DNA from: an uncultured Magnetospirillum sp.
GTDB taxonomy: Bacteria > Pseudomonadota > Alphaproteobacteria > Rhodospirillales > Magnetospirillaceae
DNA length: 34,675 nucleotides
Reading direction: 5' to 3'
NCBI RefSeq assembly: GCF_903853455.1
Contig: NZ_CAINTR010000106.1
Location: forward strand, 1 to 34,675
This document shows positions 12,770 through 34,220 of this stretch, one piece after another. Made by a program: the position numbers and the translations under genes. Under the pieces are notes generated by a model. The model had not been told where the DNA came from, did not search any database, and saw only the letters and a list, made by a program, of their open reading frames with translations. Position 1 is the stretch's first letter. Each line of letters starts with the position of its first letter.

Positions 12770-14698
12770 TCAGTCGATTCGCAGGGCGCGCAGGACGTTT
12801 CCGCCCCGCCACTGGTGGAACCGATACCACAGCAGAACGACGACAGCCGCCGCGTAGACATAGGGCTCGCCGTTCTCGTGGTTGGCAGCGAGGATAAAGT
12901 GCAACGCCACTAGGCCATTGATGACGTAGGTGGCACTGTGCAGCTTCTTCCAGCGCTTGCCGCCGATCCGCTTGATCTGGCTGTTGGCCGAGGTGAAGGC
13001 CAGCGGGATCAGCAGGCAGAAGGCCCCCAGGCCGAGCAGGATGAACGGCCGCTTGTATATGTCGGCTGACATGTCGCCCAGGTTCAAGGCCCACTCCAGC
13101 GTCACATAGGCCAGAACGTGCAGCACCGCGTAGAAGAACGCGAACAGCCCGATCATGCGCCGGTACTTGGCCAGGGACTTGATGCCGGTGATCTCTTGCA
13201 CCGGGCGCATGGCCAGCGAGATAATCAGGAAGGTGAAGGCCCAATCGCCGAGATAGCGGTTGACGAAGCCGACGGGGGCCTCGCCCAGGGAGCCGTTGGA
13301 GATGTATCCCTCGATGACGCTGCGACCGATCAGCCAGACGAAGGGCAGCGCCGCCGTCAGGAACACCAGCGGCTTCCAATCCACCTTGCGGGTGGATTTG
13401 AGGTGATGGTCGCAGGTTTCGTCGATGCCATTGGCCAGCAGCCAGGCGGCGTAGAGGGTCACCAGCATCTTGCCCGTCCCCATCAGGACGAACGGGGCGC
13501 GAGGGCCGAGAGCATCGAAATAATAGCCGCCGCTTTGGACCAGCATGACGGTGCCCAGGCCCCCGACCAGATAGCCCGCCCCCACCATGGCCCCCAGGAT
13601 GGGCTTGGGCGAGACGTCCACCGTCAGGACCTGAAGGGTCACGAAGCAGCCCGCATGGCCGATGCCCACCATCAGCAGCGGCAACGCCACCAGCCAGTTG
13701 AAGGGATTGGCGAACATTCCCAGCCAGATGTAACCCACCGCCGCCAGGGACAGGCTGGCGCCGATGGCGGAAATACGGCTGTGCCGCTCGATGAAGGATC
13801 GCCACAGCGGCACCGCCGCCAGAACCGCCAGCCCCAGCAGGCCGATCATCACGGCGGCGTGGGCGGTGGCGTAGGTGCGGGTCACCCCCACCAGGTCGGA
13901 TACGGAAATGCACCACAGCGAGAAGAACAGGCTGAGGATGATCACGTCGGCGCGGGTGTAGAAGGCCGCGGCGAAGGCCAATTGCATGCGCGGATCGCTG
14001 GTGATCACCGTCCATACCTGCCTGAGGGGGTGTTCCCCCCCCTCGACATTCTGAGGCTGGGCCACGTCCCGCAGAGTCTTGCGCGTCATCTGGAACCCGG
14101 CGATGCCGGCCAGCAACGGCAAGCACATGATGATGAACACGCCGCCCTGGTAATCGGCCATCTGCATGATGATGGCGGACAGCATGGTGCCGCCGAACAC
14201 CATCATGAACACGATGTTCCCCATCAAACGCGGCCGGTTGGCGTGGGAAGACACATCGCCCACCAGGGTCGAAAGCTGCAACTGGACGGTATCGGCCCCC
14301 ACGGTCAGCAGCACCCGCGTCAGGTAGAACAGCACCAGCCCGGCGGCGCCGAAGGCCAGCCCCATTTGCAGGCTGAGCAGCGACATCGCCGCGCCGCCCA
14401 CCGCGATCAAGAAGCCCACCGCGATAATCCGAACCCGTCCGATGCGATCCGACAGCAGGCCGAACCACCCCACGCAGACGATCGAGACGATCTCCGCCAC
14501 CACTTGGATGTCGGCGTTGACCGCGCCTTCCTTCTCGAAAGCGATGCCGAAGATCTTGTCCAGCAGCAGAGGCTGTAAGGAGATGGACAGCGCCGCTACC
14601 AGCGCGCCAACGGTCATCAGCAGGTAGATGACGTTCCATTGGGTGGAGGCGAAGCCGGTCGCTGCCCCGCGGTCCGGGGCCTTAGCGTTCCTCGGCAT
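12770..14698 (-). CDS. mamZ: Magnetosome protein MamZ (MFS transporter plus ferric-reductase-like domain)
   Basis: A 642-residue membrane protein. The N-terminal two thirds is a major-facilitator fold with many helices and the signature GLLSDRIGRVRII between helices 2 and 3. The C-terminal part, from about 450, is a YedZ/ferric-reductase-like membrane domain with conserved His residues, e.g. in YAVLHVLAYVTLEW and HSATYVINGLVALHFIL. This fusion is the hallmark of MamZ, which with MamX and MamH is implicated in iron transport and redox control of magnetite formation in Magnetospirillum. The ATG at 14698 overlaps the end of mamX by 17 bases, showing translational coupling; longer in-frame starts would run deep into mamX. 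The usual next gene, ftsZm, is absent: a convergent hemerythrin-receiver gene follows. Confidence 0.93.
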   Translation of the reverse strand: MPRNAKAPDRGAATGFASTQWNVIYLLMTVGALVAALSISLQPLLLDKIFGIAFEKEGAVNADIQVVAEIVSIVCVGWFGLLSDRIGRVRIIAVGFLIAVGGAAMSLLSLQMGLAFGAAGLVLFYLTRVLLTVGADTVQLQLSTLVGDVSSHANRPRLMGNIVFMMVFGGTMLSAIIMQMADYQGGVFIIMCLPLLAGIAGFQMTRKTLRDVAQPQNVEGGEHPLRQVWTVITSDPRMQLAFAAAFYTRADVIILSLFFSLWCISVSDLVGVTRTYATAHAAVMIGLLGLAVLAAVPLWRSFIERHSRISAIGASLSLAAVGYIWLGMFANPFNWLVALPLLMVGIGHAGCFVTLQVLTVDVSPKPILGAMVGAGYLVGGLGTVMLVQSGGYYFDALGPRAPFVLMGTGKMLVTLYAAWLLANGIDETCDHHLKSTRKVDWKPLVFLTAALPFVWLIGRSVIEGYISNGSLGEAPVGFVNRYLGDWAFTFLIISLAMRPVQEITGIKSLAKYRRMIGLFAFFYAVLHVLAYVTLEWALNLGDMSADIYKRPFILLGLGAFCLLIPLAFTSANSQIKRIGGKRWKKLHSATYVINGLVALHFILAANHENGEPYVYAAAVVVLLWYRFHQWRGGNVLRALRID

Positions 14699-15494
14699 CC
14701 ATGCCTCCCGCTTCCGCCCAGAGGCCGTTGAGGTGATTGTCGCGCAGGGCGCACACCTCGCCGTTGGCCATGACGCTCTTTCCGTAATCCAGCCCCGCAC
14801 TCCCCTGCAATGGATCGCGGAACGCGGTGCCCTTGACGAACATGCCGGGGCGAACCACGCACCCCTCCGCCTGCAAGAACCATCGCGGAGCCAGGTCGAT
14901 CCACATGGGCGGATTGATCCCGTCGTTGATCTGAATGTAAATGTCGCCCCAGACCGAGCGGGTGCCGGCACCGGCGACGCTCACGACCTTGCCCTGGTAG
15001 CGGAATGGCACCATCCGCTCATGCGCCTCGTTGCCCAGGGCGACGGGGGCCGGAGCCACCGCCAAGGCCACGCTCACCGCCTCGGGCAAGGGCATGCCCT
15101 GCATCGCCGCTGTCGCCGGAACGGCATCCGCCTTGCCGGCCCTGGCGACGCTGCCCTTCTTCACGATGGTATGGCAACTGGCGCAGGCCATATTTTCGCG
15201 CCCGTCCACATGCGGCGCCGGCGTCCCCTGGACGATCGGCAGCGTGCCGGCACCTGGACCGGCGGCGGCCGTGGGCGGAGCGACGATGTGGCAGCTGGAG
15301 CACACCATCTTCTCGCGACCGTCCCGATGGGGGGCGGCCATCCCGGCGACGATGGGCGGTGCCATGTCGTAGGTATGATCATCCCACGGATTGGCCTTGA
15401 ACACGGCGGTCAGCACCAAGGCCATGCTGAAGGCAATGCCCAGCGCCATGATCCAAACCGCGATGTCGGGATGCGCAACGGCCTTGGGGTTCAC
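14682..15494 (-). CDS. mamX: Magnetosome protein MamX (double magnetochrome)
   Basis: A 270-residue protein with one N-terminal membrane helix (about 13-33) and two c-type heme motifs, CSSCH at 65-69 and CASCH at 104-108. Each lies in a repeat with a PxxIVxGxxAPHxDGRExMxC pattern, the magnetochrome domain known only from magnetotactic bacteria. The C-terminal 120 residues form a beta-rich domain (WGDIYIQINDGINPPMWID). MamX is thought to transfer electrons and help balance ferrous and ferric iron during magnetite growth, together with MamZ, whose gene overlaps its 3' end. Translation probably begins at GTG 15494, although no strong ribosome site is visible. The gene upstream is an outer-membrane efflux protein instead of mamY, 180 bases away. 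Confidence 0.93.
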   Translation of the reverse strand: MNPKAVAHPDIAVWIMALGIAFSMALVLTAVFKANPWDDHTYDMAPPIVAGMAAPHRDGREKMVCSSCHIVAPPTAAAGPGAGTLPIVQGTPAPHVDGRENMACASCHTIVKKGSVARAGKADAVPATAAMQGMPLPEAVSVALAVAPAPVALGNEAHERMVPFRYQGKVVSVAGAGTRSVWGDIYIQINDGINPPMWIDLAPRWFLQAEGCVVRPGMFVKGTAFRDPLQGSAGLDYGKSVMANGEVCALRDNHLNGLWAEAGGMDAEER

Positions 15495-17258: not shown

Positions 17259-17260
17259 CC

Positions 17261-20374: not shown

Positions 20375-21533
20375 TGAGGAGGACTCCGCCCTTCTGAATG
20401 ATTCTCTCCCCGGCTTTCAGTCCCCGTCGTATCCTGGCGTATCCCCCGGTTTCCTGGCCCGGTTCGATCGCGCGGCGCTCGAAGGTATATGGCGCCACCT
20501 CGACGAAGACCGTGATGCGGTCGTTGTTCATCATCAAGGCGGAGGTCGGCACCAGGATCTCGTTCGTCGGCGGAGCCACGAAGGTGGCGCTGGCGAACAT
20601 GTTGGGCTTGAACCGGCCATCCCCATTAGGAAACATGATGCGAACCTTGCTCCGGCGGGTATCGGGCTCGAGAACCGCGCTGACCGAGGTCACCGTTCCC
20701 TGAAAATGTTGGTCGGGATAGGCGGGGAAGGTGACGTCCACATCCATCCCCTGTTTGACGAAGGACGCATTGTTTTCAGGTGCGTTCGCCGTCACCCAGA
20801 CCTTGTCGAGGTTGGCGATGGTCATCAACGTCCCGTTGGGATCATTGGCGAATGATCCCGGAGCGGTGCTGAGCTGGGTGATACTGCCCGACACTGGAGC
20901 CCGCAAGGTAAGGACACGACGCCCCTTGACCTCCGAGGTGGCGCCAATTTCCTTGAGCCGAGCGTGGGCGCGGTTGGACTCGGCCAAGGCCTGGGCATAG
21001 TCGCTTTCCGCCTGCTCCAGGTCCTTGATCGCACCGCCGCGCGCACTGGTGAGCGCACGCGCCCGATCCAGCACCTGTTTGGTCAGGCGCTGGGTCTCGA
21101 GCGCCTTGTCATGATCGGCATAGGCTTGAGCAAGGTCGCCGGAATCGATCACGGCCAGGGGCTGGCCCTCGGTCACCTGATCCCCAAGTTGCACCATCAA
21201 CTCCACCACCTTACCGGTAACCGGCGGCAAGACGTTGATGGTTCGCGCGGGGTCCGCCTCGACGGCGGCGGGCAGGATCAGAAGGGGGCTCGCGGTCTTT
21301 TCCTCCACATCCCCCACGACGATGCGATCGAAATAGGGAGAGCCGACGGGAAGGATGATCCGGCCTGCCTCATGGATCAGCGCGGGCGGCTTCTGAGGCT
21401 CGGCGGCGGACCTGGCGCCATGTAAGCCGCCGAAGACGGCGGCCCCCGCCACCATCGCCATCACGCCCACACCTATAGCCAACCGGCGTTTACGATCTCC
21501 TGCCGTTGTGCGTGACACCAATCGATTCGGCAT
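20367..21533 (-). CDS. CzcB-like periplasmic adaptor (membrane fusion protein)
   Basis: A 388-residue adaptor with an N-terminal membrane helix, an alpha-helical hairpin (about 140-215) flanked by lipoyl half-motifs (GKVVELMVQLGDQVTEGQPLAV and later APVSGSITQLS), and a beta-barrel. The ATG at 21533 is chosen because GGGAGG precedes it; an upstream ATG at 21596 has no ribosome site. It bridges the RND pump and the outer-membrane lipoprotein encoded next. It lacks an obvious His-rich metal-binding N-terminal extension. It lies 91 bases after the P-type ATPase gene and could share its transcript. Confidence 0.9.
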   Translation of the reverse strand: MPNRLVSRTTAGDRKRRLAIGVGVMAMVAGAAVFGGLHGARSAAEPQKPPALIHEAGRIILPVGSPYFDRIVVGDVEEKTASPLLILPAAVEADPARTINVLPPVTGKVVELMVQLGDQVTEGQPLAVIDSGDLAQAYADHDKALETQRLTKQVLDRARALTSARGGAIKDLEQAESDYAQALAESNRAHARLKEIGATSEVKGRRVLTLRAPVSGSITQLSTAPGSFANDPNGTLMTIANLDKVWVTANAPENNASFVKQGMDVDVTFPAYPDQHFQGTVTSVSAVLEPDTRRSKVRIMFPNGDGRFKPNMFASATFVAPPTNEILVPTSALMMNNDRITVFVEVAPYTFERRAIEPGQETGGYARIRRGLKAGERIIQKGGVLLND

Positions 21534-21624
21534 AACCCCCTCCCGCGAATGATAACCGGTCGCAGGTAAGTAGCAATGAACAGCCCTACTTTGCAAGTGC
21601 CTATTAGACTTGTAAGAAACTAGA

Positions 21625-23853
21625 CTATGGTCGGGTATGGCGAATGGTGGGGAGACCTGCCCTGAGCAGGCGCAATCCGTTGAAGGCCACCAGGAGCGCC
21701 GTCCCCATGTCCGCCGTGATCGCCCCCCACAGAGTCGCCATGTCCAGGAGCGCCAGAACCGCGAAAATCGCCTTCACCACGATGGCGAAGCCGATGTTCT
21801 GACGGATGACGCCCATCATCCGCCGCGAATGCCCCACCAGCCAGGCCAACCGGCCAAGATCGTCCGACATCAACGCCAGATCGGAGGTTTCGATGGCGGT
21901 GTCGGTACCGAACGCCCCCATGGCGATCCCCAGGGACGAACGGGCCATGGCCGGCGCGTCGTTGACGCCATCGCCCACCATGGCGACGACACCGAATTGC
22001 CGCAAGAGGTCGTCCATGGCAGTGCTTTTATCCTCGGGCAGCAATTCGGCCCGGACAACATCAAGGCCAAGGTCATGAGCCACCCGTTCGGCGGTCGCGA
22101 CATTGTCGCCGGTCAACATGACCAGATGCCCAACTCCCGCCCGCCGAAGGGCGGCCAGCGCCGCCCTGGCTTCCGGACGGATGGGATCGGACAGGGCAAT
22201 CAGTCCAAGCACTCCCGTCTCATCACCGACAGCCACGACGGATCGCCCCTCTTCGGCCAAGGCCTGGGCTGCTTCACGCACGGCAGGCGTTTCGGCCCCC
22301 CGCTCGACCGCGTAGCGATGTGACCCAAGCCACCCCATCCGGCCTTCAACCATCCCACTCATTCCCTTGCCGGGTTGGGCCAGCACACCGTCCGCCGGCA
22401 TGGGGACGATTCCCCGCGCGGCGGCATGGTCAAGGATGGCGCGGCCCAGGGGATGACTGCTGCGGGCCTCGAGGGCCGCCGCGAAACGCAGGATACTGGC
22501 CTCGCTTCCGCCATCCATCGCCACCACCCGCTCGACGGCGGGGCGGCCCGAGGTCAAGGTTCCGGTCTTGTCGAAGGCGATCGCCGAAAGACGGGACACG
22601 GTTTCGAGATATTCGCCTCCCTTGACCAGGACACCGGCCCGCGCCGCCGAAGCCATGGCGGCCACCACCGTCAGCGGCGTCGAGATCACCAGGGCGCAGG
22701 GGCATGAAATGACCAGAAGCACCAGAGCCCGATAGACCCACTCGGACCATCCCAGGCCCAGCAATAGCGGCGGAAGCAACGCCACCGCCACCGCGCCGGC
22801 CAGGACGGCGGGAGTGTAGATGGCGGCGAAACGATCGACCCAGCGTTCGTCCTTGGATCTCTGCCCCTGGGCCTCCTCCACCAACCGGGCGACCTTGGCC
22901 AGGGTGGTCTCTCCGGCCAACTTCAAATTCTCGATCTCGAGTACGCCGTCGGCATTGATGGATCCGGCGAAGACCTCCATGCCGGGTGACTTCGGGACCG
23001 GAACGCTTTCACCGGTGATCGGCGCCTGGTCCACCATGCTCTCGCCGACCAGCACCCGTCCGTCCAAGGGTATCTGCTCGCCGGGCAGAACGACGAAGCA
23101 GGCTCCAATCGCCACATCCTCGGGCGGCAAGAGGTCTTCGCCGCCATCGGGCCGCCTCACCCGCGCCAGGGACGGGGCGCTGTCCATCAGGGCGGCGATG
23201 GCGCGGCGAGCCCGCTCGGCGCTCCAGCTCTCCAGCGCCAGCGACAGGGCGAACAGGGCCGAGACCGTCGCCGCCTCCATCCAGTCGCCCAGCACCATGG
23301 CGCCAAGCACCGCCACCGTCATCAGCAGGTTCATGTCCGGCCGCAGCGAACGGGCCGCAGCGAACGCCTTCGGCAACACCATCCGCAGTCCCACCGCGAC
23401 GGCGACCGCTTCCGCGATTCGAGCCGGCAGAGCCATGTGGAGGGCCTCGTCGCATATCAAACCCGACACCACCGCGGTGCCGCTGACCGCCGCCAGGACA
23501 GCCTGGAGCCACCGACGGGAGGCATCGGCCCGGTTGCGCTGGGAGGCGGTGGAGCGCTCCCACACTTCCGCCGTCATGCCCAGGCCGGCGATCACGGCGA
23601 CGACCTCGTCCGGAGCGACTCCCGACGGCACCGTCATCCTACCGTTGAGCAGGTCGAAACTCAGGCGGTCCTCACCTCCGGCCATGGGGCCGAGTGCCGC
23701 CTTCAGGGCCCGCACCTCCTCGACGCAGCACATACCGGTAACCCGGAAAGACCGCCTCATCCGATCCGCCGCCGGGCGCAAAGGCATGACGGGCATCTGG
23801 GGAAAGGCCGTCCCGCAGCATGTTCCGGTACAGCAGGCGTTGGTTTCCGACAT
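21625..23853 (-). CDS. P1B-type heavy-metal ATPase (Zn/Cd/Pb type)
   Basis: A 742-residue metal-exporting ATPase. The ATG at 23853 is supported by GGAAGGAG; the longer in-frame start adds residues upstream of it. The N-terminus is Cys-rich (NACCTGTCCG) and a metal-binding domain has MCCVEE at 41-46 in place of the usual GMTCxxC. The core shows SCPCAL (about 384), DKTGT (about 427), SSHPLG and GDGVNDAPA. The CPC membrane motif and CCVEE domain fit the ZntA/CadA group that exports Zn, Cd and Pb from the cytoplasm. A divergent MerR regulator and promoter directly upstream support metal-induced expression. It works in series with the RND exporter. Confidence 0.92.
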   Translation of the reverse strand: MSETNACCTGTCCGTAFPQMPVMPLRPAADRMRRSFRVTGMCCVEEVRALKAALGPMAGGEDRLSFDLLNGRMTVPSGVAPDEVVAVIAGLGMTAEVWERSTASQRNRADASRRWLQAVLAAVSGTAVVSGLICDEALHMALPARIAEAVAVAVGLRMVLPKAFAAARSLRPDMNLLMTVAVLGAMVLGDWMEAATVSALFALSLALESWSAERARRAIAALMDSAPSLARVRRPDGGEDLLPPEDVAIGACFVVLPGEQIPLDGRVLVGESMVDQAPITGESVPVPKSPGMEVFAGSINADGVLEIENLKLAGETTLAKVARLVEEAQGQRSKDERWVDRFAAIYTPAVLAGAVAVALLPPLLLGLGWSEWVYRALVLLVISCPCALVISTPLTVVAAMASAARAGVLVKGGEYLETVSRLSAIAFDKTGTLTSGRPAVERVVAMDGGSEASILRFAAALEARSSHPLGRAILDHAAARGIVPMPADGVLAQPGKGMSGMVEGRMGWLGSHRYAVERGAETPAVREAAQALAEEGRSVVAVGDETGVLGLIALSDPIRPEARAALAALRRAGVGHLVMLTGDNVATAERVAHDLGLDVVRAELLPEDKSTAMDDLLRQFGVVAMVGDGVNDAPAMARSSLGIAMGAFGTDTAIETSDLALMSDDLGRLAWLVGHSRRMMGVIRQNIGFAIVVKAIFAVLALLDMATLWGAITADMGTALLVAFNGLRLLRAGLPTIRHTRP

Positions 23854-23912
23854 GGCGAAGGCTCCTTCCTTACGGCTCGCGATCCTGCTGGACAAACCAT
23901 CGATCGGAGTCG

Positions 23913-23943
23913 AGCATGGACCCTGGAGTCACTACAGAGTCAA
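23913..23943 (-). promoter_or_regulatory. MerR-type promoter and operator for the metal ATPase gene
   Basis: On the minus strand, a perfect TTGACT -35 (23938-23943) and a weak -10 CATGCT (23913-23918) are separated by 19 bases, the over-long spacer typical of MerR-controlled promoters. A 21-base imperfect dyad centred on G covers 23920-23940 (ACTCTG...CAGGGT, two mismatched pairs). It reads toward the ATPase start at 23853 and lies just upstream of the divergent merR-family gene. Confidence 0.85.
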
Positions 23944-23952
23944 CGGGAAACG

Positions 23953-24384
23953 ATGTCCATGTCGCAGATCAATATCGGAGACCTCAGCCAGCTGACCGGC
24001 GTCAACATCGAGACCATCCGGTACTACGAGAAAATCGCCCTGATGCCGCCGCCGCCCAGAACCCAGGGCGGCTTCCGCCTTTATGGAGAAAGCCACGCCC
24101 AACGGCTTCGGTTCATCCGGCGTGGCCGTGACCTGGGATTCTCCATAGAGTCCATCCGCGCCCTGCTGACGCTGGCGGAACGGCCGGACCTCCCCTGCGG
24201 GGACGCCGACCAGATGGTCGCCAGCCACCTTGATGAGGTGGATCGGAAAATCGCCGACCTGATCGCCCTGCGGGAAGAGCTGCGGCAATTGACGAATTGC
24301 CGCGGGCAGGTGGTCGCCGAATGTCGGATCATCGCGTCGCTGACCTCCCCCGCGCCCCCGTGCGAGCAGCGGGAAGGGACGTGA
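23953..24384 (+). CDS. MerR-family metal-responsive regulator (CadR/ZntR-like)
   Basis: A 143-residue regulator starting at ATG 23953. The N-terminus has the MerR helix-turn-helix (IGDLSQLTGVNIETIRYYEKIALM) and the wing (GGFRLYGESHAQRLRFIRRGRDLGFSI). The dimerisation helix follows, and the metal-loop area contains DLPCGDA and NCRGQVVAECRII; the tail ends SPAPPCEQ. Cys residues in these positions suit Zn, Cd or Pb sensing. It is transcribed away from the ATPase gene and faces a MerR-type promoter. It ends 6 bases before the convergent gene at 24391. It is expected to repress weakly without metal and activate ATPase (and perhaps RND) expression with metal. Confidence 0.9.
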   Translation: MSMSQINIGDLSQLTGVNIETIRYYEKIALMPPPPRTQGGFRLYGESHAQRLRFIRRGRDLGFSIESIRALLTLAERPDLPCGDADQMVASHLDEVDRKIADLIALREELRQLTNCRGQVVAECRIIASLTSPAPPCEQREGT

Positions 24385-24390
24385 ACCGCC

Positions 24391-25542
24391 CTACGCCTCG
24401 ATGATGGGCGTCCCGTCGATGTGGAAATGCTCGGCCAAGGCCTTTTCCAGGCCCCATAGCTCGCCATCCTCGAAGACGATGCGGACCAGATCATTGGGAT
24501 CGCACGCCGCCACCAGCGAACGGATCTCACGCGCCTCGCGCAGGATCTTGGAAATCTGCTGGCGCACGTTCTCGGCATCAGCCGCACATTGCCGTAACTG
24601 GTCCGGACGGCTGACGGCCTCATGAACCAGACTGCGAAAGAAGACGTTCTTGTCGCCGGAGAAATAGGCGTTGGTCAGGCTCGCGATGAATTTCCGCGTG
24701 CCTTCCCGATCGCCAAGGGCCGCATTCAGGTGTTCGGTCAGCAACTGCGTCGCCGTCATGCTGAGATCGTTGAGGGCCAGCCCCAGCACCTCCGCCAGCG
24801 CCCGCATGCGGTCGATCCGTTGCGACGGGTCGAGAACGGGGGCGGTGGTCGGAGCGACGCTCCGGCTCTGGGCGATGTGGGACAGTTCCTGGGTGATCTC
24901 CTGCGACAACACCCGCTGGGACCGCAACTCGTCGACGATCCCGTCGCTGCTGTCGCGGGTCACCTGCACCAGTTGGGCGGTCGCCGAAACCTGGGCCTCC
25001 AATTGTCCGGCCACCGCCTCGCGATGCTCGCGGAACAACTGGGCCAACAAGGCCATGGAATCGTCGGTGCCGGCATCATGCCGGGGAGCGGCAAGAGCGC
25101 GGACGTCCTGGTTCATCTGGACCAATTGGGCGGTCGCCTCGACCTGGGCCGCCACCTGGGCGGCGATGGCCTCGCGATGCTCGCGGAACAGATCGGCCAA
25201 CATCGTCACCGCCCCTTCCGAGGCGACATCCCGCTGGGACAGGGCGGTGATCTCGGACTTCATGGTATCGACGCTGCTCACGATCCGCGCGAGCAGGACG
25301 ATCAGAACCATGAGCGCGATCGGCAATGTGATCGCCAATAGAACAATAAAAAACTCATGCGGAAGCATGGTAAAAACATTCTTCCAGCCATTGAAAATGG
25401 TTATATAAACAACCGACAGAACAAGCCAAGCGATCGAGCACGCCCACAGCACGCGGGTACTGCTATTAAACTTGGCCGACATTCCCCTAACAAACCCCAT
25501 CAACATAAGGACGGCTCCCATGATGGCGCCCCAGGCATCCAA
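24391..25542 (-). CDS. mamY: Membrane protein with coiled-coil repeats, possible MamY
   Basis: A 383-residue protein (about 41-42 kDa). Two clear membrane helices (about 31-51 and 62-86) are followed by a long helical region. It contains two near-identical repeats about 51 residues apart, each with LFREHREA and AQV-x-ATAQLVQ (about 114-144 and 165-195). The C-terminal 130 residues are helical. Two N-terminal helices, a long coiled coil, this size, and its position upstream of mamX and mamZ on the same strand match what is known of MamY, the protein that organises magnetosome chains or shapes magnetosome membranes. I could not compare sequences directly, so the symbol is tentative. It is separated from mamX by the metal-efflux genes. 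No good ribosome site was seen; a start at the eighth codon is possible. Confidence 0.45.
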   Translation of the reverse strand: MDAWGAIMGAVLMLMGFVRGMSAKFNSSTRVLWACSIAWLVLSVVYITIFNGWKNVFTMLPHEFFIVLLAITLPIALMVLIVLLARIVSSVDTMKSEITALSQRDVASEGAVTMLADLFREHREAIAAQVAAQVEATAQLVQMNQDVRALAAPRHDAGTDDSMALLAQLFREHREAVAGQLEAQVSATAQLVQVTRDSSDGIVDELRSQRVLSQEITQELSHIAQSRSVAPTTAPVLDPSQRIDRMRALAEVLGLALNDLSMTATQLLTEHLNAALGDREGTRKFIASLTNAYFSGDKNVFFRSLVHEAVSRPDQLRQCAADAENVRQQISKILREAREIRSLVAACDPNDLVRIVFEDGELWGLEKALAEHFHIDGTPIIEA

Positions 25543-25787
25543 ATGCGCTGGGACGCAGACGTCGTCGTCACAATAACAGCAAGACGACCGGCAGGATACC
25601 TTGGAAACAACCCACTGGCATGGCTCGGCCGCCGGACCGTCAGCAACTGAAAATGCATGTGACTCTCATGTTGTTATGCTTTCAAGGACATGGCTGTGTA
25701 CATGCAAGTGACATTATGCTAATCGCCCAGACTGGGTGTCGCAAGTCGTGCGGCCGGCGACGATGATGGACGGAGCAGGAGGGTTAC

Positions 25788-26768
25788 ATGAGCTATTCCC
25801 AGGAAATCAGCAGGGAGTGCAAGGGAGTGTTCCTGTTCATGGTCGATCAATCGCGATCCATGAACAAGGAATTCGGCCCCGACCTGTCGGGAAAGATGGT
25901 CAGCCGCGCCGTGGTCGTGGCCAACGCCCTGAACGGCACCCTGGAAGAGCTGGTCAACCGCTGCATGCGTGATGAAGGCGTGCGCGATTATTTCGACGTC
26001 GGCATCATCGGCTACGGCCGCACCAACCGACCGGAATTCTGCTGGCGCGGCGGATTGGCCGGCCGCCGTCTGGTCCCCATCTCGGAGGTGGCGAGCAACG
26101 CCGAGACCGAGGAGGTGGAGATCGAGACCGAGGTGCGCGGCCAGGTGCTGATCGAGCGCATCACCCTGTCGCGCTGGATCGATCCGGTCGGGGTGGACAG
26201 CACCCCCATGAACGCCGCCCTCCGCCTGGCCCACGCCACCCTGGAAACCTGGGTGCGCGACAACCCGCACTCGTTCCCTCCGGTGGTGATCAACATCACC
26301 GACGGCATGGCCAACGACGTCAACACCGACGCCGAGCTTCTGGCCACGGCGCGGAAGCTTACCGAGCTGAAAACCAGCGACGGCAACGTGCTGCTGATCA
26401 ACTGCCACATCGCAGGCGGAACCGACGCGCCGGTTGTCTTCCCCTCGTCACCGACGGAATTGCCGCGCGCGCCCTACGCCAAGCTGCTGTTCGACATGTC
26501 GAGCGAACTGTCCAACCGGCACCGCGCCATCATCTGCGAGGTGTTCGACCGCGACCTGGACCGCACGCCCGTCATCAAGGGCATGGCGTTCAACGCCGAC
26601 GCCGTGGCCCTCCTCAAACTGCTGGACATCGGCACCCGCCAGGCCATCGGCCTGTCCGCCCCCATCGAACCCTCCGTGGCGCCGGATTTGGGATCCGAAC
26701 CGATCATCAGCGATTCCTTCGACATCGAGCATCCGGCGATGCAGATCGAGTTCAGCGAGCAAGAGTAA
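25788..26768 (+). CDS. TerY-like von Willebrand factor A domain protein
   Basis: A 326-residue soluble protein with GGAGG six bases before the ATG. A von Willebrand A domain covers about residues 12-215. The metal-ion-dependent adhesion site is intact: DQSRS (Asp20, Ser22, Ser24), the Thr in VDSTPMNAAL, and the Asp in NITDGMAND. This type, followed by a PP2C phosphatase and a Ser/Thr kinase, is the TerY-P triad known from tellurite-resistance-linked and metal- or stress-linked loci. In such triads the VWA protein is thought to be the scaffold or phosphorylation target. The divergent neighbour is the possible mamY gene. The C-terminal about 70 residues are acidic and probably flexible. Confidence 0.88.
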   Translation: MSYSQEISRECKGVFLFMVDQSRSMNKEFGPDLSGKMVSRAVVVANALNGTLEELVNRCMRDEGVRDYFDVGIIGYGRTNRPEFCWRGGLAGRRLVPISEVASNAETEEVEIETEVRGQVLIERITLSRWIDPVGVDSTPMNAALRLAHATLETWVRDNPHSFPPVVINITDGMANDVNTDAELLATARKLTELKTSDGNVLLINCHIAGGTDAPVVFPSSPTELPRAPYAKLLFDMSSELSNRHRAIICEVFDRDLDRTPVIKGMAFNADAVALLKLLDIGTRQAIGLSAPIEPSVAPDLGSEPIISDSFDIEHPAMQIEFSEQE

Positions 26769-26774
26769 CGAATC

Positions 26775-27692
26775 TTGATCCGGCGACGCCTCCCCATGCT
26801 TTCGTGGACCGCCCAGGGCCGATCCGTCGTCAAGCCCCGCAACGACAGCTTCACCAGCGGCGACACGGTGCTGTGGCGGCGGAACGAAGACCGTTTCCGG
26901 CTGGTGAAAACGCCGGATGGAGTGATGGCCGCCATATCGGACGGCGCCGGCGGCGCCGGGCTGTTCTGCGGCCCCTGGGCCGAAACGCTGGTGACCCGGC
27001 TGCCCAAGTCTCCCCTTGCTGGGTTGAAGGCCCTCAACCAGTGGATGGACGGCTTCTGCCTGACCTTCCGCGCCGAATACGCCGAGCGATCGAAAGCGAC
27101 GCCAGCCCGGCACAGCAAATTCATCCGTGAAGGTTCGTTCGCCACGCTGGTGGCGGGCTGGCTGACCTATCGCCAGGGGCGGGTGATGCTGCGGTGGCTG
27201 GGTTATGGCGATAGCCAGATGATGGTGTTCGACCGCACCGGACGCCAGCCGGTCCTGGCCGCCAGCTACCCGACGACCTTGTCGGCGCTGGACCGGGCGC
27301 CATTTCTGCTCAATTGGAAGGACATGCCGCGCGAGGCCAGCCTCCATGGCGGCGAGATGGCGCTGCCGGATCGGGCGACGGTGGTGCTGGCCTCGGACGG
27401 AATCGGTCAATACCTGTTGCTGCGGACCCTGGCCAGTCTGGCGCGCCCCGCCTCGGCGACCGGAATGCTGGGCGAGTTCCAGCGCCTGTCCGGCGGCGAG
27501 AGCAAGCTGGGACAAGCCGCCCGCGCCCATCGCGCCACCCCGCCACCCTGCGTGTCCACCGAGCTGGCGACCCTCCGCGACAGCCTCAAATCCGATCACT
27601 CTTTCGCCGGCCGGGTCCGCGCCCTGTTCGACAAGGGATTGCTCGCCAACGACGATTCCACGCTCATCATGCTCGACATCGACCTCCGGTGA
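26775..27692 (+). CDS. PP2C-type Ser/Thr protein phosphatase of the TerY triad
   Basis: A 305-residue protein from TTG 26775, with AAGAG nine bases upstream; an ATG at 26796 would give 298 residues and cannot be excluded. PP2C metal-binding and catalytic motifs are all present: RRNEDRF near residue 37, AISDGAGGAG near 58, GSFATLVAGW, VLASDGIGQY, and NDDSTLIMLD near the C-terminus. It should therefore be an active Mn/Mg-dependent phosphatase. It lies 6 bases after the TerY-like gene and 7 bases before the kinase gene, so the three are one operon and the enzyme probably reverses phosphorylation by the kinase. Confidence 0.85.
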   Translation: MIRRRLPMLSWTAQGRSVVKPRNDSFTSGDTVLWRRNEDRFRLVKTPDGVMAAISDGAGGAGLFCGPWAETLVTRLPKSPLAGLKALNQWMDGFCLTFRAEYAERSKATPARHSKFIREGSFATLVAGWLTYRQGRVMLRWLGYGDSQMMVFDRTGRQPVLAASYPTTLSALDRAPFLLNWKDMPREASLHGGEMALPDRATVVLASDGIGQYLLLRTLASLARPASATGMLGEFQRLSGGESKLGQAARAHRATPPPCVSTELATLRDSLKSDHSFAGRVRALFDKGLLANDDSTLIMLDIDLR

Positions 27693-27699
27693 CTCTTCC

Positions 27700-28665
27700 A
27701 TGCCCCTCCCCCTGATCAACGACTACAAGACGGCCATTGCCAACGCCAAGGGGCGCTTTGCCACCCTGGAATTCGAGCCGCATCTGGACGCGCGCCGCAG
27801 CCCGGTCTTCCTGGCCGGCAATTTCGCGGGGGTGTTCAAGGTGATGGCCAAGGGCGGAGATCCCATGGCCATCAAGTGCTTCACCCGCGAGGTTCCCGAC
27901 CTGCCGCGCCGCTACGCCGCCGTGGCCAAATTCTGCCGGACCTCCCAGTGCCCCTATGTGGTGCCGCTGCAATTCCTGCCGGCCGAGGTGTTCGTTACCT
28001 CCAGCGTGGCGCCCCACACCGACTACGCGGTGGTGACCATGCCCTGGATCGACGGGCGCGGCATCGGCGCCATCGCCGAACTCCTGTGTCAGCGAAGCAA
28101 TGCCTCGGCACTGGCCGGACTGACCCGGGCGTGGGGCCGTCTGTGCCTTGACCTGCTGCGACGCGGCATCGCCCATGGCGATTTGAAGCACGACAACGTC
28201 CTGGTCAGCCAGGATGGTCGCCTTAAGCTGATCGACTATGATTCCATGTACCTGCCCGAACTGAAAGGACTGCCCTCGACCATGCTGGGTGGGATCAATT
28301 TCCAGCACCCACGGCGCGATGTCCGGCATTTCGATCCCGCCATCGACCACTTTTCCATGCTGGTTATTCTGCTGTCGCTGCGGGCCTTGACCTTCGAACC
28401 GGAATTGTTCAAGCGCCATCACAACGGCGAGAACCTCATCCTGATCAAGAGCGACTTCGCCCAGCCAGAGCGTTCAGACCTGCTGAAGCAATTCGGGGCC
28501 AGCCCGGATTTCCATGTCCGCGATTGGGCAACGCATCTGACCAAGGCGGCAAAGGCCCCGACCATCCGCATTCCCGGCATCGACGCCATCCTCACCTCGG
28601 CGACCAAGATCGACGCCAGCCCGGCCAAACCACCCGCCAAAAGGCTGTTCTCGTTCCTCTCCTAG
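27700..28665 (+). CDS. Ser/Thr protein kinase of the TerY triad
   Basis: A 321-residue kinase starting at ATG 27700. Catalytic residues are Lys59 (MAIK), His159-Gly-Asp161-x-Lys163-x2-Asn166 (HGDLKHDN) and the metal-binding Asp179 in a DYD motif replacing DFG. The glycine-rich loop is reduced (AGNFAGVFKV). HGD and DYD variants are usual in the TerY-associated kinases. No membrane helix or sensor domain is seen, so the input probably comes through the VWA partner. It ends 15 bases before a convergent small gene. Substrates are unknown; nearby magnetosome or iron proteins are an attractive but unproven possibility. Confidence 0.88.
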   Translation: MPLPLINDYKTAIANAKGRFATLEFEPHLDARRSPVFLAGNFAGVFKVMAKGGDPMAIKCFTREVPDLPRRYAAVAKFCRTSQCPYVVPLQFLPAEVFVTSSVAPHTDYAVVTMPWIDGRGIGAIAELLCQRSNASALAGLTRAWGRLCLDLLRRGIAHGDLKHDNVLVSQDGRLKLIDYDSMYLPELKGLPSTMLGGINFQHPRRDVRHFDPAIDHFSMLVILLSLRALTFEPELFKRHHNGENLILIKSDFAQPERSDLLKQFGASPDFHVRDWATHLTKAAKAPTIRIPGIDAILTSATKIDASPAKPPAKRLFSFLS

Positions 28666-28680
28666 GCCGGGACAGGCAGG

Positions 28681-28932
28681 TCAGTGAGGGCGCCTTTGGC
28701 GCACCGCCGCCGAACCATAGATCAAGCTCGCCATCAACCCAACGGCGACGGCAGCCCCTAATGGACCACCAGCCAAAGCCCCCAGCCCCACCGCCGCCCC
28801 CTTGCCAAGGGCCAGAAAACCGGCGGCCTTGGCTGTACCGGCGGCCACCGCACCACCCGCGCCGGCGATGGCGGAACCAACGACCGGGTGCGTCCCCGGA
28901 GGTGTGGCGTTAGCTGGGGTGTAAAGGCTCAT
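28681..28932 (-). CDS. Small Ala/Gly-rich membrane protein
   Basis: An 83-residue protein; GAAGGGG lies about 8 bases before the ATG. It is composed mainly of Ala, Gly and Val, with two hydrophobic stretches (about 18-40 and 45-70) and a basic tail (AVRQRRPH). The segment LGKGAAVGLGALAGGPLGAAVAVGLM recalls the glycine-rich membrane segments of MamC/Mms6-type proteins without being clearly homologous. It is divergent from feoA across a 230-base region that carries a Fur-box candidate, so it may be iron-controlled. I do not recognise a family. A small magnetosome-membrane protein is a reasonable guess from composition and context. Confidence 0.6.
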   Translation of the reverse strand: MSLYTPANATPPGTHPVVGSAIAGAGGAVAAGTAKAAGFLALGKGAAVGLGALAGGPLGAAVAVGLMASLIYGSAAVRQRRPH

Positions 28933-29164: not shown

Positions 29165-29419
29165 ATGAATCAGCACATTGAGATGGATAGCGTCACCCTT
29201 GCCGACCTTCGCCCGGAGCAACAGGGCGAAATCCTCAAAATCGACAGCGCTGATGGTGTTTTCAAACGCCGCATGATGTCGCTCGGGGTGGTTGCCGGCA
29301 CTGCCGTCACCCTGGATCGCTCGGCCCCGCTCGGCGATCCGCGCATCTACACCCTGATGGGCTACAGTTTGGGGCTTCGCAACACCGAAGCCCGGCAGAT
29401 TCGCATCCGCCTGAAATAA
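29165..29419 (+). CDS. feoA: Ferrous iron transport protein FeoA
   Basis: An 84-residue SH3-like protein. The pattern from LADLRPEQQGEILKID through KRRMMSLGVVAGTAVTLDRSAPLGDPRIYTLMGYSLGLRNTEARQIRI is typical of FeoA: the MxLGxxxG core and the final beta strand are conserved. FeoA is a cytoplasmic partner of the FeoB iron transporter, whose gene begins 37 bases downstream. Magnetospirilla carry a magnetosome-island feoAB in addition to a general one; proximity to mms6/mmsF-type genes suggests this is the magnetosome-associated pair. A Fur-box candidate lies upstream. Confidence 0.9.
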   Translation: MNQHIEMDSVTLADLRPEQQGEILKIDSADGVFKRRMMSLGVVAGTAVTLDRSAPLGDPRIYTLMGYSLGLRNTEARQIRIRLK

Positions 29420-29456: not shown

Positions 29457-31568
29457 ATGAAATCCCCCGTCACCGTGGCACTGGTGGGCAACCCCAATGC
29501 TGGCGCCACCAGCTTGTTCAATGCCCTGACGGGCGCCCAATCCGCCGTCGCCAACTACCAGCGGGTCACCACCTCGCTCTCCACGCGCGAGATCAGCCAT
29601 CGCGGAGTCAGCTTACGCATCGTCGATGTCCCGGGCATCTTCTCCACATCGTCACAATCGCCGGAGGAGAAGATCGGCTGTGATTACCTTCATGGCGAAG
29701 AGCCGGACGTCATCGTCAACGTCCTCGACGCCGGCCATCTGGACCGCAGCCTGTTCCTGACCACCCAGTTGATCGAGACCGGGCTTCCCCGCATCACCGT
29801 CCTCAACATGATTGACGAGGTGCGACGCGCCGGCATCCGCATCGACACTGCCATGCTGGCATCGGCCCTCGGCTCGCCGGTGGTGGAGACCTGCGCCCTG
29901 AAGAAGGAAGGGATCGAAGCCCTGCTGGATGCCGTCGTGGGGGTGGTCTCGGCACCGCCCGTCACGCCCCTGCGGCTGCACTACGACAGCCACCTGGAGG
30001 CGGCCATCGACCGCGTCCAGCAGCATATGGCCGAGTTGCACCCGCAGGAGCTGAGCCCCGTGCGTTCACGCTGGCTGGCGACCAAACTGCTGGAAGGCGA
30101 CGACGAGATTCTGCGCCACGAAAGCAATCACGTCGAACTGGTCGATGAAATCCGGGGCGAGCAATCCACCCTGGCCCACGAACACGACGAGGACGCCGCC
30201 ACCTTGCTGGCCTCGGCGCGCTTTGCCTTTTCCAACGGATTGCTGCGGGAAGTCCGCCAGCAGACGGAGGACCCCACAGCCGGGTTCAAGCTGACCCGCA
30301 TCCTCGATGACGTCTTCCTGAACCGGAGCCTGGGCCTGCCGCTGCTGCTCGGCATTCTGTGGGTGATGTTCGAGGCCACCTTCAGCCTGGGTGCCATTCC
30401 CACCGACTGGATCAAGGCCGGGGTTCAGTTGGCGACCGACCTCGTGGACAAGACCCTGCCCGAGGGAATGTTCCACGATCTGGTGATCAACGGCGTCATG
30501 GCCGGTGTCGGCGGCACCATCGTCTTCCTGCCCAACATCGTCATCCTGTTCTTCTTCATGGCGGTGTTGAGCGGCACCGGCTACCTCGCCCGCGCCAGCT
30601 TTCTGATGGATCGGGTGATGCACCATTTCGGCCTGCACGGCACCACCCTGATCCCCATGGTGGCCGGCTTCGGCTGCAACGTCCCGGCGGTCATGGCCAC
30701 CAGCGTCATCACCAACAAGCGGGCGCGCCTGATCGCCATGCTGATCTCGCCGTTCATGAGCTGCTCGGCCCGCTTGCCGGTTTTCATCCTGTTCGCCGGA
30801 GCATTCTTCAGCAATATCGCCGGAACGGTGGTATTCGCCATGTACATGGCCTCGATCGGAACGGCCATGCTGTCGGCGGTGCTGCTCAACCGCATCATTC
30901 CCGGCAGCGGCAGCGACGCCTTCGTCATGGAATTGCCGCCTTACCGCCTGCCGACCATGCATTCGGTGCTGCACCACATGTGGGACAGCGCCCAGGGCTT
31001 CGTCGCCAAGGTCACCGGCGTCATCCTGGTGGGTTCGGTCGTGATCTGGTTCCTCCAGGAATTTCCCCGCAACATCGTCTATTCCCAGGATTTCGAGACC
31101 GCCATCACCGAGATGGAAAGCCGGGCCGACAGCCCGGCCAAGGACGAGGCCTTGCGCAGTCTCAAGGCGACCCAGGCGCAGGAGAAACTGGAAAAAAGCT
31201 ATCTCGGACGTTCGGCCATCGCGGTGACGCCGCTGTTCGAACCACTGGGCTTCTCGTGGCGGGAATCGGCCTCCATCATGACCGGCTTCGTCGCCAAGGA
31301 AGTGGTGGTGGCGACCTACGCCGTCATCTACGCCCAAGAGAAGCAATCGGATGGCCTGACGGCGGCCCTGCGGGGGGCCATGCCTCCGGCAACGGCGGTC
31401 GCCTTCATGATCTTCACCTTGCTCTACGCCCCCTGCCTATCGACCATCGCCATCATCGCGCGGGAGGCGCGGAGTTGGCGATGGGCCGGCTTCTCCGTGG
31501 CATATTCGTTGACCTTCGCCTGGATCCTGGCGCTGGCGGTAAGCAAGATCGGCCAGCACCTGCTCTAG
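29457..31568 (+). CDS. feoB: Ferrous iron transporter FeoB with an altered P-loop
   Basis: A 703-residue transporter with an N-terminal G domain and a polytopic membrane domain. The G3 (DVPG, Asp57) and G4 (NMID, Asn117-Asp120) motifs are conserved, but G1 reads GNPNAGATSLFN: Ala17 replaces the P-loop Lys of the usual GNPNxGK(S/T). The G2 region (NYQRVTTS) is also unusual. In the membrane part, the gate motifs GFGCNVPAVMAT and PFMSCSARLPVF and the late ESASIMTGFVAKEVVV segment are present. FeoB imports Fe2+. Loss of the Lys would be expected to weaken nucleotide binding or hydrolysis, so this copy may work differently. GAGG precedes the ATG. Confidence 0.93.
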   Translation: MKSPVTVALVGNPNAGATSLFNALTGAQSAVANYQRVTTSLSTREISHRGVSLRIVDVPGIFSTSSQSPEEKIGCDYLHGEEPDVIVNVLDAGHLDRSLFLTTQLIETGLPRITVLNMIDEVRRAGIRIDTAMLASALGSPVVETCALKKEGIEALLDAVVGVVSAPPVTPLRLHYDSHLEAAIDRVQQHMAELHPQELSPVRSRWLATKLLEGDDEILRHESNHVELVDEIRGEQSTLAHEHDEDAATLLASARFAFSNGLLREVRQQTEDPTAGFKLTRILDDVFLNRSLGLPLLLGILWVMFEATFSLGAIPTDWIKAGVQLATDLVDKTLPEGMFHDLVINGVMAGVGGTIVFLPNIVILFFFMAVLSGTGYLARASFLMDRVMHHFGLHGTTLIPMVAGFGCNVPAVMATSVITNKRARLIAMLISPFMSCSARLPVFILFAGAFFSNIAGTVVFAMYMASIGTAMLSAVLLNRIIPGSGSDAFVMELPPYRLPTMHSVLHHMWDSAQGFVAKVTGVILVGSVVIWFLQEFPRNIVYSQDFETAITEMESRADSPAKDEALRSLKATQAQEKLEKSYLGRSAIAVTPLFEPLGFSWRESASIMTGFVAKEVVVATYAVIYAQEKQSDGLTAALRGAMPPATAVAFMIFTLLYAPCLSTIAIIAREARSWRWAGFSVAYSLTFAWILALAVSKIGQHLL

Positions 31569-32363: not shown

Positions 32364-33011
32364 TCAGACGGCTTCGGCCGCAGCCGGCTCGGCATTGCGG
32401 TTCTTGTAATATCCATAAAGGGCCACGGCGCCCGCCACTCCGACGACACCCAGCAGCACCGGCCCCCAGGCTCCGAGACCCAGACCGAGGCCAAGGCTCA
32501 CGCCCTTGGCGGTCAGCATGGCGCTGCCGCTGCTGGCGGCGACGATGGGACTGGCGGTGACCGAAGCCCCGCTGGCGGCTCCCGCTGCGGCGGCGCCGGC
32601 CGCACCGGCCCCGCCGGCGGCAACCACGGCCTTGCCCTTGGCTCCAGCGGCGGCGATCTTGGTCGCGCCGCCGACAGTGGAGGTCGTGCCGACGCCCTTG
32701 GCGGTCAGAGCCGCCTGATTGGCGCCACCAGTAGCAACCTTGGCCCCGGCGGCCTTCATTCCGGCCGCCTTGGCGGTAACCGCCTCGCGCTCAACCTCGG
32801 CGGCGGCGGCTTTCGCGGCACCGGTCTTGGCCGCCACGCCATTGGCCGCACCCGCCTGAGCCCCGCCGGCTTTCATGCCGGCCGCCTGCGCTGCGCCCTC
32901 ACGTTCGATTTCCCGCGCAGCTGCGGCCCCCACGGGCACGCCACCGGCTGCGGGAACTGCGGCATTCGCGGCGGCTCCACCTGCCATTCCCGTTGCCATC
33001 TGCACTGCCAT
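32364..33011 (-). CDS. Mms6/MamD-like leucine-glycine-repeat magnetosome protein
   Basis: A 215-residue protein; GGAGGG precedes the ATG at 33011, which is preferred over an in-frame ATG at 33056. Residues 1-165 are Ala/Gly-rich and low in complexity. At 168-180 is [14 protein letters not shown], then [22 protein letters not shown], the LG-repeat and membrane helix of Mms6 and MamD. The helical N-terminal part contains a duplication (ExEREGA...AAGMKA at 34-48 and 72-87), which may explain a length between Mms6 (about 135-157) and MamD. The C-terminus ([13 protein letters not shown]) lacks most of the acidic residues that bind iron in Mms6. It likely acts on the magnetosome membrane in crystal maturation. 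It is first in an operon with the MmsF-like gene. Confidence 0.85.
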
Positions 33012-33114
33012 GACCACCCTCCAAGAGTATTGAGAAATTAACTTCTCTTTTGACATATGCAGCTACTTACGGCAATAGCCTTTCATTTGACGGATCGAAA
33101 GCGCGAACTTGCGC

Positions 33115-33135
33115 ATGATAACGATTGTCATATAG
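33115..33135. promoter_or_regulatory. Strong Fur-box candidate upstream of the mms6-like operon
   Basis: ATGATAACGATTGTCAT (33115-33131) has 7-base arms ATGATAA/TTGTCAT with one mismatch around CGA, very close to the Fur consensus GATAATGATAATCATTATC. It lies in the divergent region between the mms6-like operon (start 33011) and the small gene at 33258, so it could control either. An 8-bp GC stem (GGGCGGGA/TCCCGCCC, 33143-33160) lies next to it. Confidence 0.6.
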
Positions 33136-33257
33136 CACTTGTGGGCGGGAACTCCCGCCCCCTCCCCGTGCCAAAAATTTGCCGCTTTGATTCGCGCCTA
33201 TGGTAAGCTGGAGGGGAGTAAATCAGCGTTTCGCAGCGGCCACGTACGGGAATTTCC

Positions 33258-33473
33258 ATGATCGACATACCACTAACCGGACTAAAAGTCGCGGCGCCGA
33301 AATTGCTCTCGGGAGTGCTTTTGGGCCTGCCGCTCACCGTTGCCATTGGTCCCGGCCTTGGGCTGGTGGTCGTGGGCGTGCTTGGAGCCGCTTGCGTCGG
33401 AGGATACGTAACCGCCGTAAATTCATTGGCCCGCGGCAAGTCCCGGCCCTCCGTCGCCATCCCGCCACTTTGA
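33258..33473 (+). CDS. Small hydrophobic glycine-rich protein, possibly MamG-like
   Basis: A 71-residue protein with GGGAA about 6 bases before the ATG. Most of it is one or two membrane helices: LLSGVLLGLPLTVAIGPGLGLVVVGVLGAACVGGYVTAV. The IGPGLGLVVVGVLGA part resembles the LG-repeat/helix region of small magnetosome proteins such as MamG and Mms6, but the repeat is imperfect. It is divergent from the mms6-like operon and shares its Fur-box region. This supports, without proving, a small magnetosome-membrane role. Confidence 0.6.
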   Translation: MIDIPLTGLKVAAPKLLSGVLLGLPLTVAIGPGLGLVVVGVLGAACVGGYVTAVNSLARGKSRPSVAIPPL

Positions 33474-33672
33474 TACGCAGGGGAGAACCTCCCGCCAAAG
33501 GGAAGGGGTGCCGGACGTCTGCCGGAGAGATCGACGGAGGACATTTCGAGTGCGGCCGGAAGGCCCGCGCCCACTCCATCGCATAGCCCAATACCTCGAA
33601 TTCACGCTTTGACAAGTCAGTCTGGACTGGACACCATCACCTGGGCGGCCATTTAAGACGGAGACGAAGGAA

Positions 33673-33933
33673 ATGAGCGGCGGTGACAATAAGGAAGCAG
33701 CCCTTGCGATCATCAGGGGCATTATTGGCGCAGCCACCGACGTCGCGAAGATGGCTCAGGAAATCGAGCAAGAAGTCGACGAAATCGGCAATGCACCCGC
33801 CGCGGCAATGACGGCGGTAAAGCCGCCCGTCATTTTCGACGCCCCCCCTCCTGCTCCGCAGCCCGAGGTCAAGGCAAGTTCCCAGGCCGAAGTCTTGAGC
33901 CAACTTCTCAGTCGCAAGCCGAACAAGAGATAG
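33673..33933 (+). CDS. Small hypothetical protein with a helical N-terminus and Pro-rich tail
   Basis: An 86-residue protein; GAAGGAA directly precedes the ATG at 33673. Residues 5-40 form a likely amphipathic helix (KEAALAIIRGIIGAATDVAKMAQEIEQEVDEI). The middle is Pro-rich (FDAPPPAPQP) and the end is helical and basic (EVLSQLLSRKPNKR). No membrane helix or known domain is seen. It follows the small hydrophobic gene on the same strand 200 bases later and may share its regulation. Confidence 0.55.
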   Translation: MSGGDNKEAALAIIRGIIGAATDVAKMAQEIEQEVDEIGNAPAAAMTAVKPPVIFDAPPPAPQPEVKASSQAEVLSQLLSRKPNKR

Positions 33934-34132
33934 CCTCGGCGGGACGGCCCCTGCCATCGGCTTAGGGCTGCCTCCTGAAGCAGGCGGCGGCGTTTCGTCG
34001 CCCCCAATCCTATCCGCTGAGCGTGCCGTGTCTTACGCAATCGACTAGGAACGACCCCTTCCTCAAGTTATTCGATCCAAAGCCGATGGGCAAAAACACG
34101 TGGCAATCCGCCACATCCAGCCCCTCCGCAAC

Positions 34133-34211
34133 GGTAACGCGTTACCAATTTCGCCCTTTTCCGAAGACACGGAGGGGGCACCCTGTTAGGCTCCAGTAGT
34201 AACGTGTTACC
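34133..34211. promoter_or_regulatory. Twin operator palindromes before a small regulator-like gene
   Basis: GGTAACGCGTTACC at 34133-34146 is a perfect 14-base palindrome, and AGTAACGTGTTACC at 34198-34211 is a near copy with its centre 65 bases away. They bracket the probable promoter of the gene at 34221; the second ends just before its ribosome site. This arrangement is typical of repression by a protein binding two sites, often autoregulatory. Confidence 0.7.
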
Positions 34212-34220
34212 GGAGGCAGG

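Follow-up and report, generated by a model that had tools for sequence, protein, structure and literature searches.

A subfamily of TerY-type VWA proteins, encoded as a rule ahead of a Ser/Thr protein kinase and often accompanied by a PP2C-type phosphatase, is near-exclusive to Alphaproteobacteria that carry magnetosome genes. The member analyzed here occupies positions 25788–28665 of a 34,675-nucleotide stretch from an uncultured Magnetospirillum sp. (contig NZ_CAINTR010000106.1; hereafter the window, meaning the whole stretch), where the three genes form a compact triad beside several magnetosome genes. We judge it somewhat probable that this triad represents a branch of the TerY-P systems dedicated to magnetosomes, which would act through reversible Ser/Thr phosphorylation of magnetosome proteins and would play an accessory role. 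If true, it would add a layer of organelle control that operates after translation, extend the TerY-P triads from stress and defense to organelle biology, and give reason to revisit magnetosome-island genes so far dismissed as irrelevant. Neither such a layer nor the triad itself in magnetotactic bacteria was found reported in the open-licence literature searched, in keeping with the original prediction, made from the sequence alone, that a phosphorylation switch on magnetosome or iron proteins had not been described. A module that is both near-exclusive and physically tied to magnetosome genes offers a concrete, testable candidate for post-translational control.

The three triad genes lie on the plus strand, separated by gaps of 6 and 7 bases:

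25788..26768, plus strand: terY1, TerY-type VWA protein of 326 amino acids, residues of the metal ion-dependent adhesion site (MIDAS) intact
26775..27692, plus strand: PP2C-type Ser/Thr phosphatase, 305 amino acids from a TTG start, metal ligands intact
27700..28665, plus strand: Ser/Thr protein kinase, 321 amino acids, catalytic motifs intact, C-terminus without OB fold or zinc ribbon

Coordinates, profiles and alignments all agree with the complete, closely packed TerY-type triad that the original prediction had placed here, the phosphatase start being uncertain between the TTG at 26775 and an in-frame ATG at 26796. The terY1 product matches the PADLOC TerY model (E = 2.7e-60), returns zero matches in Pfam and PDB sequence searches, and gives an AlphaFold2 model (predicted local distance difference test, pLDDT, 80) that resembles solved VWA and integrin I domains. 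The phosphatase falls under the cut-off of Pfam PP2C_2, matches the PADLOC PP2C model at 2.7e-7 and has zero PDB matches by sequence, and its structure model (pLDDT 88) matches solved PP2C phosphatases with a best E of 5.5e-9. Fold comparison thus settles the identities of TerY1 and the phosphatase despite the empty PDB sequence searches. The kinase passes the Pfam Pkinase cut-off (6.6e-9) and finds only weak PAK-type kinase matches in the PDB by sequence. It aligns to positions 37–293 only of the 562-position PADLOC STK_OB model, the protein stopping at residue 321, and its only cysteines are at residues 60, 79, 84, 130 and 149.

Conservation within the triad is concentrated where catalysis and metal binding would require it. 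In TerY1, which has homologues of 83–86% identity in 12 other genomes, D20, S22, S24, T139 and D172 are invariant in an alignment of 13 selected sequences, and we take these residues to form the MIDAS. D39, D56, G57, D208, N292, D293 and D294 of the phosphatase (11 selected sequences), and K59, H159–N166 (HGDLKHDN) and D179 of the kinase (15 selected sequences), are likewise invariant and presumably correspond to the metal ligands and the catalytic motifs, respectively; K59 and K163–D165 of the kinase lose their invariance once an outgroup of 33% identity joins the alignment. The ratio of nonsynonymous to synonymous substitution (dN/dS) is 0.12–0.21 for the three genes across the window genome, G041 and G008 (the latter two we take to be strains MSR-1 and AMB-1), similar to that of feoB (0.11–0.17). 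The triad genes are under purifying selection, and their conservation and dN/dS rule out chance open reading frames (ORFs).

One line of evidence for a magnetosome connection is distributional. Scoring TerY by homologues of at least 60% identity and MamB by matches over its cut-off, 99 genomes (the window's own included) yielded TerY in 25 and MamB in 27, with both in 23, TerY only in two, MamB only in four and neither in 70 (Fisher p = 2.5e-16, uncorrected for shared ancestry). Among the 76 better genomes the corresponding counts were 21, 0, 4 and 51. MamB exceeds its cut-off in 11 of the 17 genomes of the window's genus and TerY accompanies it in all 11, while the remaining six yielded no TerY homologue at the 60% threshold. 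Genomes positive for both span four families (f1, f4, f17 and f22). Contrasts without close TerY come from MamB-negative members of the same genera, namely, G095 against G075, and G004, G006, G011–G013 and G015 against the window genome; together these weigh against shared ancestry alone as the explanation of the co-occurrence. In both TerY-only genomes, G017 and G036, a MamG/Mms5-like gene adjoins terY. A further 384 genomes, sampled evenly across the class, yielded a TerY match at E ≤ 1e-15 in a single case.

A second sample came from scanning one genome per species with the TerY alignment alone, the search patterns deriving from magnetotactic members, so that it samples this subfamily and not all TerY. 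It returned 31 loci, 30 of them in 24 alphaproteobacterial genomes, including Magnetospirillum, Paramagnetospirillum, Magnetovibrio blakemorei MV-1 and strain LM-1, and one in an Abditibacteriales metagenome-assembled genome whose TerY is 43% identical and which has no MamB match. The two samples overlap and do not count as independent, since 17 of the 24 genomes, as judged from contig sizes and match coordinates, recur in the set of 99. Magnetosome genes occur in 23 of the 24, with MamB over its cut-off in 21; beyond these, G489 has MamE over its cut-off and mms6, mamG and mamF near terY (locus L091), and in G496 mms5 and mamF adjoin terY (L102).

Most magnetospirilla with TerY1 also carry a second copy of part of the module. 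A terY2–kinase2 pair, devoid of PP2C and with the two genes overlapping by 4 bases, adjoins mms5 in 10 of the 13 magnetospirilla whose TerY1 is at least 83% identical (window genome counted); it is absent from G000, G002 and G005, and G038 carries an additional truncated terY2 piece. The window's assembly yielded no terY2 and no kinase2, and the contig stops 1.6 kb past mms5; the site that the pair occupies in relatives (33057–34675 of the window) holds short unassigned ORFs to the contig end. Kinase2 (L042:14889–16052 and equivalents) is 66 residues longer than the triad kinase and, by eye, has a SHOCT-like end.

Phylogenetic analysis of TerY groups the magnetotactic sequences in a single clade (support 100/100), within which TerY1 and TerY2 are separate. 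The TerY1 clade (15 rows, 100/99) unites magnetospirilla with LM-1 and WMHbin7 and has mamY adjacent in 13 of 15, the other two (L086 and L088) starting at a contig edge; the TerY2 clade (10 rows, 100/99) has mms5 adjacent in nine of 10, with L098 at a contig edge. Each paralogue has thus kept its own partner wherever the neighborhood is visible. Between G041 and G008, synonymous divergence (dS) is 0.14–0.19 for terY2, kinase2 and feoB as opposed to 0.63–0.88 for the first triad, which argues that the feoAB–mms5–terY2 block moved between species more recently. This movement fits the roughly 10 kb transposase-flanked feoAB1–mmxF block found at different island ends in M. gryphiswaldense assemblies (PMC5920173).

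Searched by tblastn, 22 of the 30 loci contain a recognizable mam or mms gene, and the arrangements number at least five:

mamY divergent from terY: magnetospirilla, LM-1 and WMHbin7
mms5/mamG–mamF upstream in the same direction: L091, L093, L095, L102 and L104, the mamF and terY matches about 95–165 bases apart
mamZ adjacent: L094 and L097
triad followed by mamX and mamZ: L106, also G070
mamQ–mamB–mamS upstream: L108
mms5 divergent from terY2: L085, L099, L100, L101 and L105

A kinase match follows terY in 29 of the 30 loci (L091 stops after terY, and the contig runs out within the L109 kinase), and PP2C is present in 21, with terY leading directly into the kinase in seven. The mamY, mms5/mamF or mamX/mamZ genes recur near the triad outside the magnetospirilla; feoAB lies near it mainly within them and not in most other loci, which rules out a strictly feo-linked iron switch. 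As such, the conservation beside mam and feo genes that the original prediction proposed as a check holds for mam and only in part for feo, and the sporadic occurrence among unrelated neighbors that it named as counterevidence was not seen, given a subfamily near-confined to magnetosome-gene genomes and set among mam genes in several ways. G070 presents a peculiar arrangement, with two near-identical terY copies (L057:8096–9007 and 15876–16787) in opposite orientation enclosing PP2C, kinase, mamX and mamZ, and with mamS and mamB beyond; this is perhaps an inverted duplication.

How might such a module act on the organelle? Because a kinase and a PP2C phosphatase are encoded with a VWA adaptor, a reversible Ser/Thr switch is suggested, in which the kinase would phosphorylate, and the phosphatase dephosphorylate, Ser/Thr residues of magnetosome proteins, and TerY would present its metal-binding MIDAS face as a scaffold or metal-dependent adaptor that joins kinase and substrate. 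In excerpts of PMC11090510, TerY-P triads are likewise hypothesized to be metal-sensing phosphorylation switches. The likeliest substrates would be MamY, acting in chain positioning, MamX and MamZ, acting in redox, and MamF-like sorting factors with their cargo Mms5 and MamD, because the module stays attached to the genes of these proteins. MamY has been described as a cytoskeletal protein that serves to position the chain (PMC9549626), and MamJ, MamD and Mms5 are reported to be mislocalized without MamF-like proteins (PMC11628618). On this view the triad would act after translation and in an accessory capacity, matching organelle assembly or positioning to the state of metal, redox or the cell cycle, and would not be required for magnetite formation itself. 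Activity, substrates, signal and effect are all read here from sequence and gene context. More specifically, and only tentatively, the two TerY–kinase pairs, one tied to mamY and the other to mms5/mmxF, may regulate chain positioning and the loading of magnetosome-membrane cargo as a dedicated reversible Ser/Thr system.

Several observations weigh against a dedicated magnetosome role. Four MamB-positive relatives (G019, G072, G078 and G089) show no TerY match, and one TerY genome of the scan, G487, has neither a MamB match nor MamE over its cut-off; the scan patterns, moreover, are unable to find more distant TerY. Some mam matches near the triad are weak (28–37% in L094, 40–43% in L106), and eight of the 30 loci have no mam gene in the fetched flank even at E up to 0.01; in L086, L098 and L110 terY lies less than 400 bases from a contig end, which is not so in L089, L090, L103, L107 and L109. 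According to the excerpted text of PMC7908775, deletions in R2 and R8 of M. gryphiswaldense keep wild-type-like magnetosomes, and a five-operon cassette that lacked the intervening genes restored them in the roughly 100 kb dM13 deletion. In G041, mamY stands between the triad and the mamB-bearing cluster, which would place the triad outside mamXYop and probably within the deleted segments; the published MSR-1 deletions thus probably took out the first triad, as judged from gene order. The excerpts of a Tn5 screen at 86% saturation do not name the triad, and report that no mamY mutants were recovered (PMC7676999), so the screen may be blind to positioning genes.

Because of the wild-type-like deletions, the Tn5 screen and the four MamB-positive relatives that lack the module, an essential role of the triad is unlikely. 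The second copy could compensate for loss of the first, and the role would be accessory, redundant or conditional. What stands of the new control layer put forward in the original prediction is the co-occurrence with, and linkage to, mam genes; control of magnetosome formation would go beyond it.

An alternative that we consider unlikely, if the strongest of the rivals, is that the triad senses metal or oxidative stress arising from high iron and phosphorylates general stress targets instead of magnetosome proteins, being retained near mam and feo genes since it is useful only in iron-loading cells. The metal-sensing hypothesis for TerY-P triads (PMC11090510, in part) would suit this role, as would the feoAB genes, cadA-type ATPase and MerR-type regulator in the same window, and the complemented dM13 strain of M. 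gryphiswaldense is reported, in excerpts, to have regained magnetosomes while growing about 70% less under H2O2 (PMC7908775). This effect, however, stems from a many-gene deletion of about 100 kb, and the linkage to feoAB is not general, that to mamY, mms5/mamF and mamX/mamZ being wider.

It is less probable still that the triad is an antiphage TerY-P system riding as a passenger on the magnetosome island. All three proteins match PADLOC models (TerY, PP2C and STK_OB), as do 15 of 15 homologues each of TerY and the kinase; TerY-P is reported as an antiphage system in the passages of PMC7699616 and PMC11090510, and the MSR-1 island is described as rich in mobile elements (PMC7908775, excerpts). 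The kinase, however, is devoid of both the defense-type OB fold and the zinc ribbon, PP2C is missing from the seven of 30 loci where terY leads directly into the kinase, only one of the 24 alphaproteobacterial TerY genomes is without detected magnetosome genes, and each paralogue keeps its mam partner across a deep split. On kinase architecture and host range, as far as these can be judged from sequence, a plain antiphage TerY-P system is set aside as a misfit. We give similarly little credence to inert hitchhiking, by which the triad would be inherited with the island and have no role. Island blocks do move, as the contrasting dS values of G041 and G008 illustrate, so linkage can spread by transfer, and a truncated terY2 of 122 amino acids occurs in L046/L082. 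Purifying selection on the triad, the invariance of catalytic residues in the copies aligned, and retention of the triad through rearrangement of the genes around it argue the other way.

The surroundings of the triad in the window comprise the following features:

12770..14971, minus strand: mamZ, NCBIfam MamZ 1063.7 bits (cut-off 650)
14682..15494, minus strand: mamX, NCBIfam MamX 416 bits (cut-off 400)
24391..25542, minus strand: mamY, NCBIfam MamY 634.7 bits (cut-off 600), ORF start uncertain, divergent from terY1
25543..25787, no strand: mamY–terY1 divergent intergenic region
29165..29419, plus strand: feoA, ferrous iron transport, Pfam FeoA 2.5e-18
29457..31568, plus strand: feoB, ferrous iron transporter, NCBIfam feoB 558.3 bits
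32017..32352, minus strand: mmxF, MamF-like protein, no NCBIfam match, named by its position beside mms5
32364..33056, minus strand: mms5, Ala/Gly-rich magnetosome protein related to MamG, MamD and Mms6, NCBIfam MamG 102.4 bits (cut-off 100), the name Mms5 being assigned from position

The flanks named in the original prediction are borne out, its possible mamY scoring above the family cut-off and feoA and feoB being clear, with feoAB beginning 0.5 kb downstream of the triad. The mmxF ORF has tblastn matches of 84–94% adjoining mms5 in seven loci, and an mms5–mmxF operon is published (PMC9549626, in part). Between mamY and mamX, positions 15675–24384 hold a cadA-type P-ATPase, a CadR/MerR-type regulator and, by eye only, RND-efflux-like ORFs; the mamXY operon, contiguous in L042, is split by this metal-efflux block. 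With mamX and mamZ thus parted from mamY, the window represents a part of a magnetosome island with an interrupted mamXY operon.

Within the mamY–terY1 intergenic region, a block around TGTGTACATG...ATTATG (about 25687–25730) is common to most magnetospirilla in a MAFFT alignment of 12 loci, absent from the two LM-1-type loci (L092 and L096) and weak in L087. It may be a divergent promoter or operator used by both genes; scanning the region for promoters gave one, no better than the 0.9 expected from shuffles. Just beyond the triad, an 83-amino-acid Gly/Ala-rich ORF on the minus strand (28681–28932), has no Pfam or NCBIfam match. Of the 30 genomes searched, 10 match it; all 10 are MamB-positive and belong to the window's genus, whereas the six MamB-negative genus members and the MamB-positive G002 do not match. 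It is possibly a small magnetosome protein.

Among known magnetosome systems, the operons mamXYop, mms5op and feoAB1op provide the immediate context, as their genes mms5, mmxF, mamX, mamZ, mamY and feoAB are all in the window; the passages available on these operons do not list the triad as magnetosome genes. A further VWA protein is McaA of AMB-1, which requires its MIDAS to position magnetosomes, according to excerpts of PMC9512821. As described there, it differs from TerY1 in that its VWA is predicted to be periplasmic within a membrane protein and its partner is McaB; neither kinase nor phosph- occurs in the main text of that paper (PMC9512821).

The closest comparison outside the magnetosome context is with the TerY triads of the MamB-negative G004, G006 and G015, where TerY and kinase also follow in a row and where, in G004 and G006, a PP2C-like frame lies between them by eye. 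These differ in a TerY of 33–37% identity, a kinase of 420–424 amino acids and the lack of a MamB match, and the G004 and G006 TerY fall outside the magnetotactic clade. Tellurite ter systems have the TerD family, none of which was found in the window's whole genome (PF02342, zero matches; control search positive in two of 14 genomes); a tellurite ter locus is thus ruled out, and the original remark that no ter genes were in view extends, for TerD, to the genome. With the TerY-P triads described in PMC11090510 and PMC7699616 (excerpts) the present module shares the set of TerY VWA protein with intact MIDAS, PP2C and Ser/Thr kinase, and it is set apart by its own TerY clade, its location in a magnetosome cluster and a second copy without PP2C. 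The antiphage TerY-P kinase has a C-terminal OB fold and that of the CoCoNuT type a C-terminal zinc ribbon, both of which the window kinase lacks. By composition the module is a TerY-P triad; with OB fold, zinc ribbon and TerD all missing, we regard it as a separate variant, a magnetosome-associated TerY-P.

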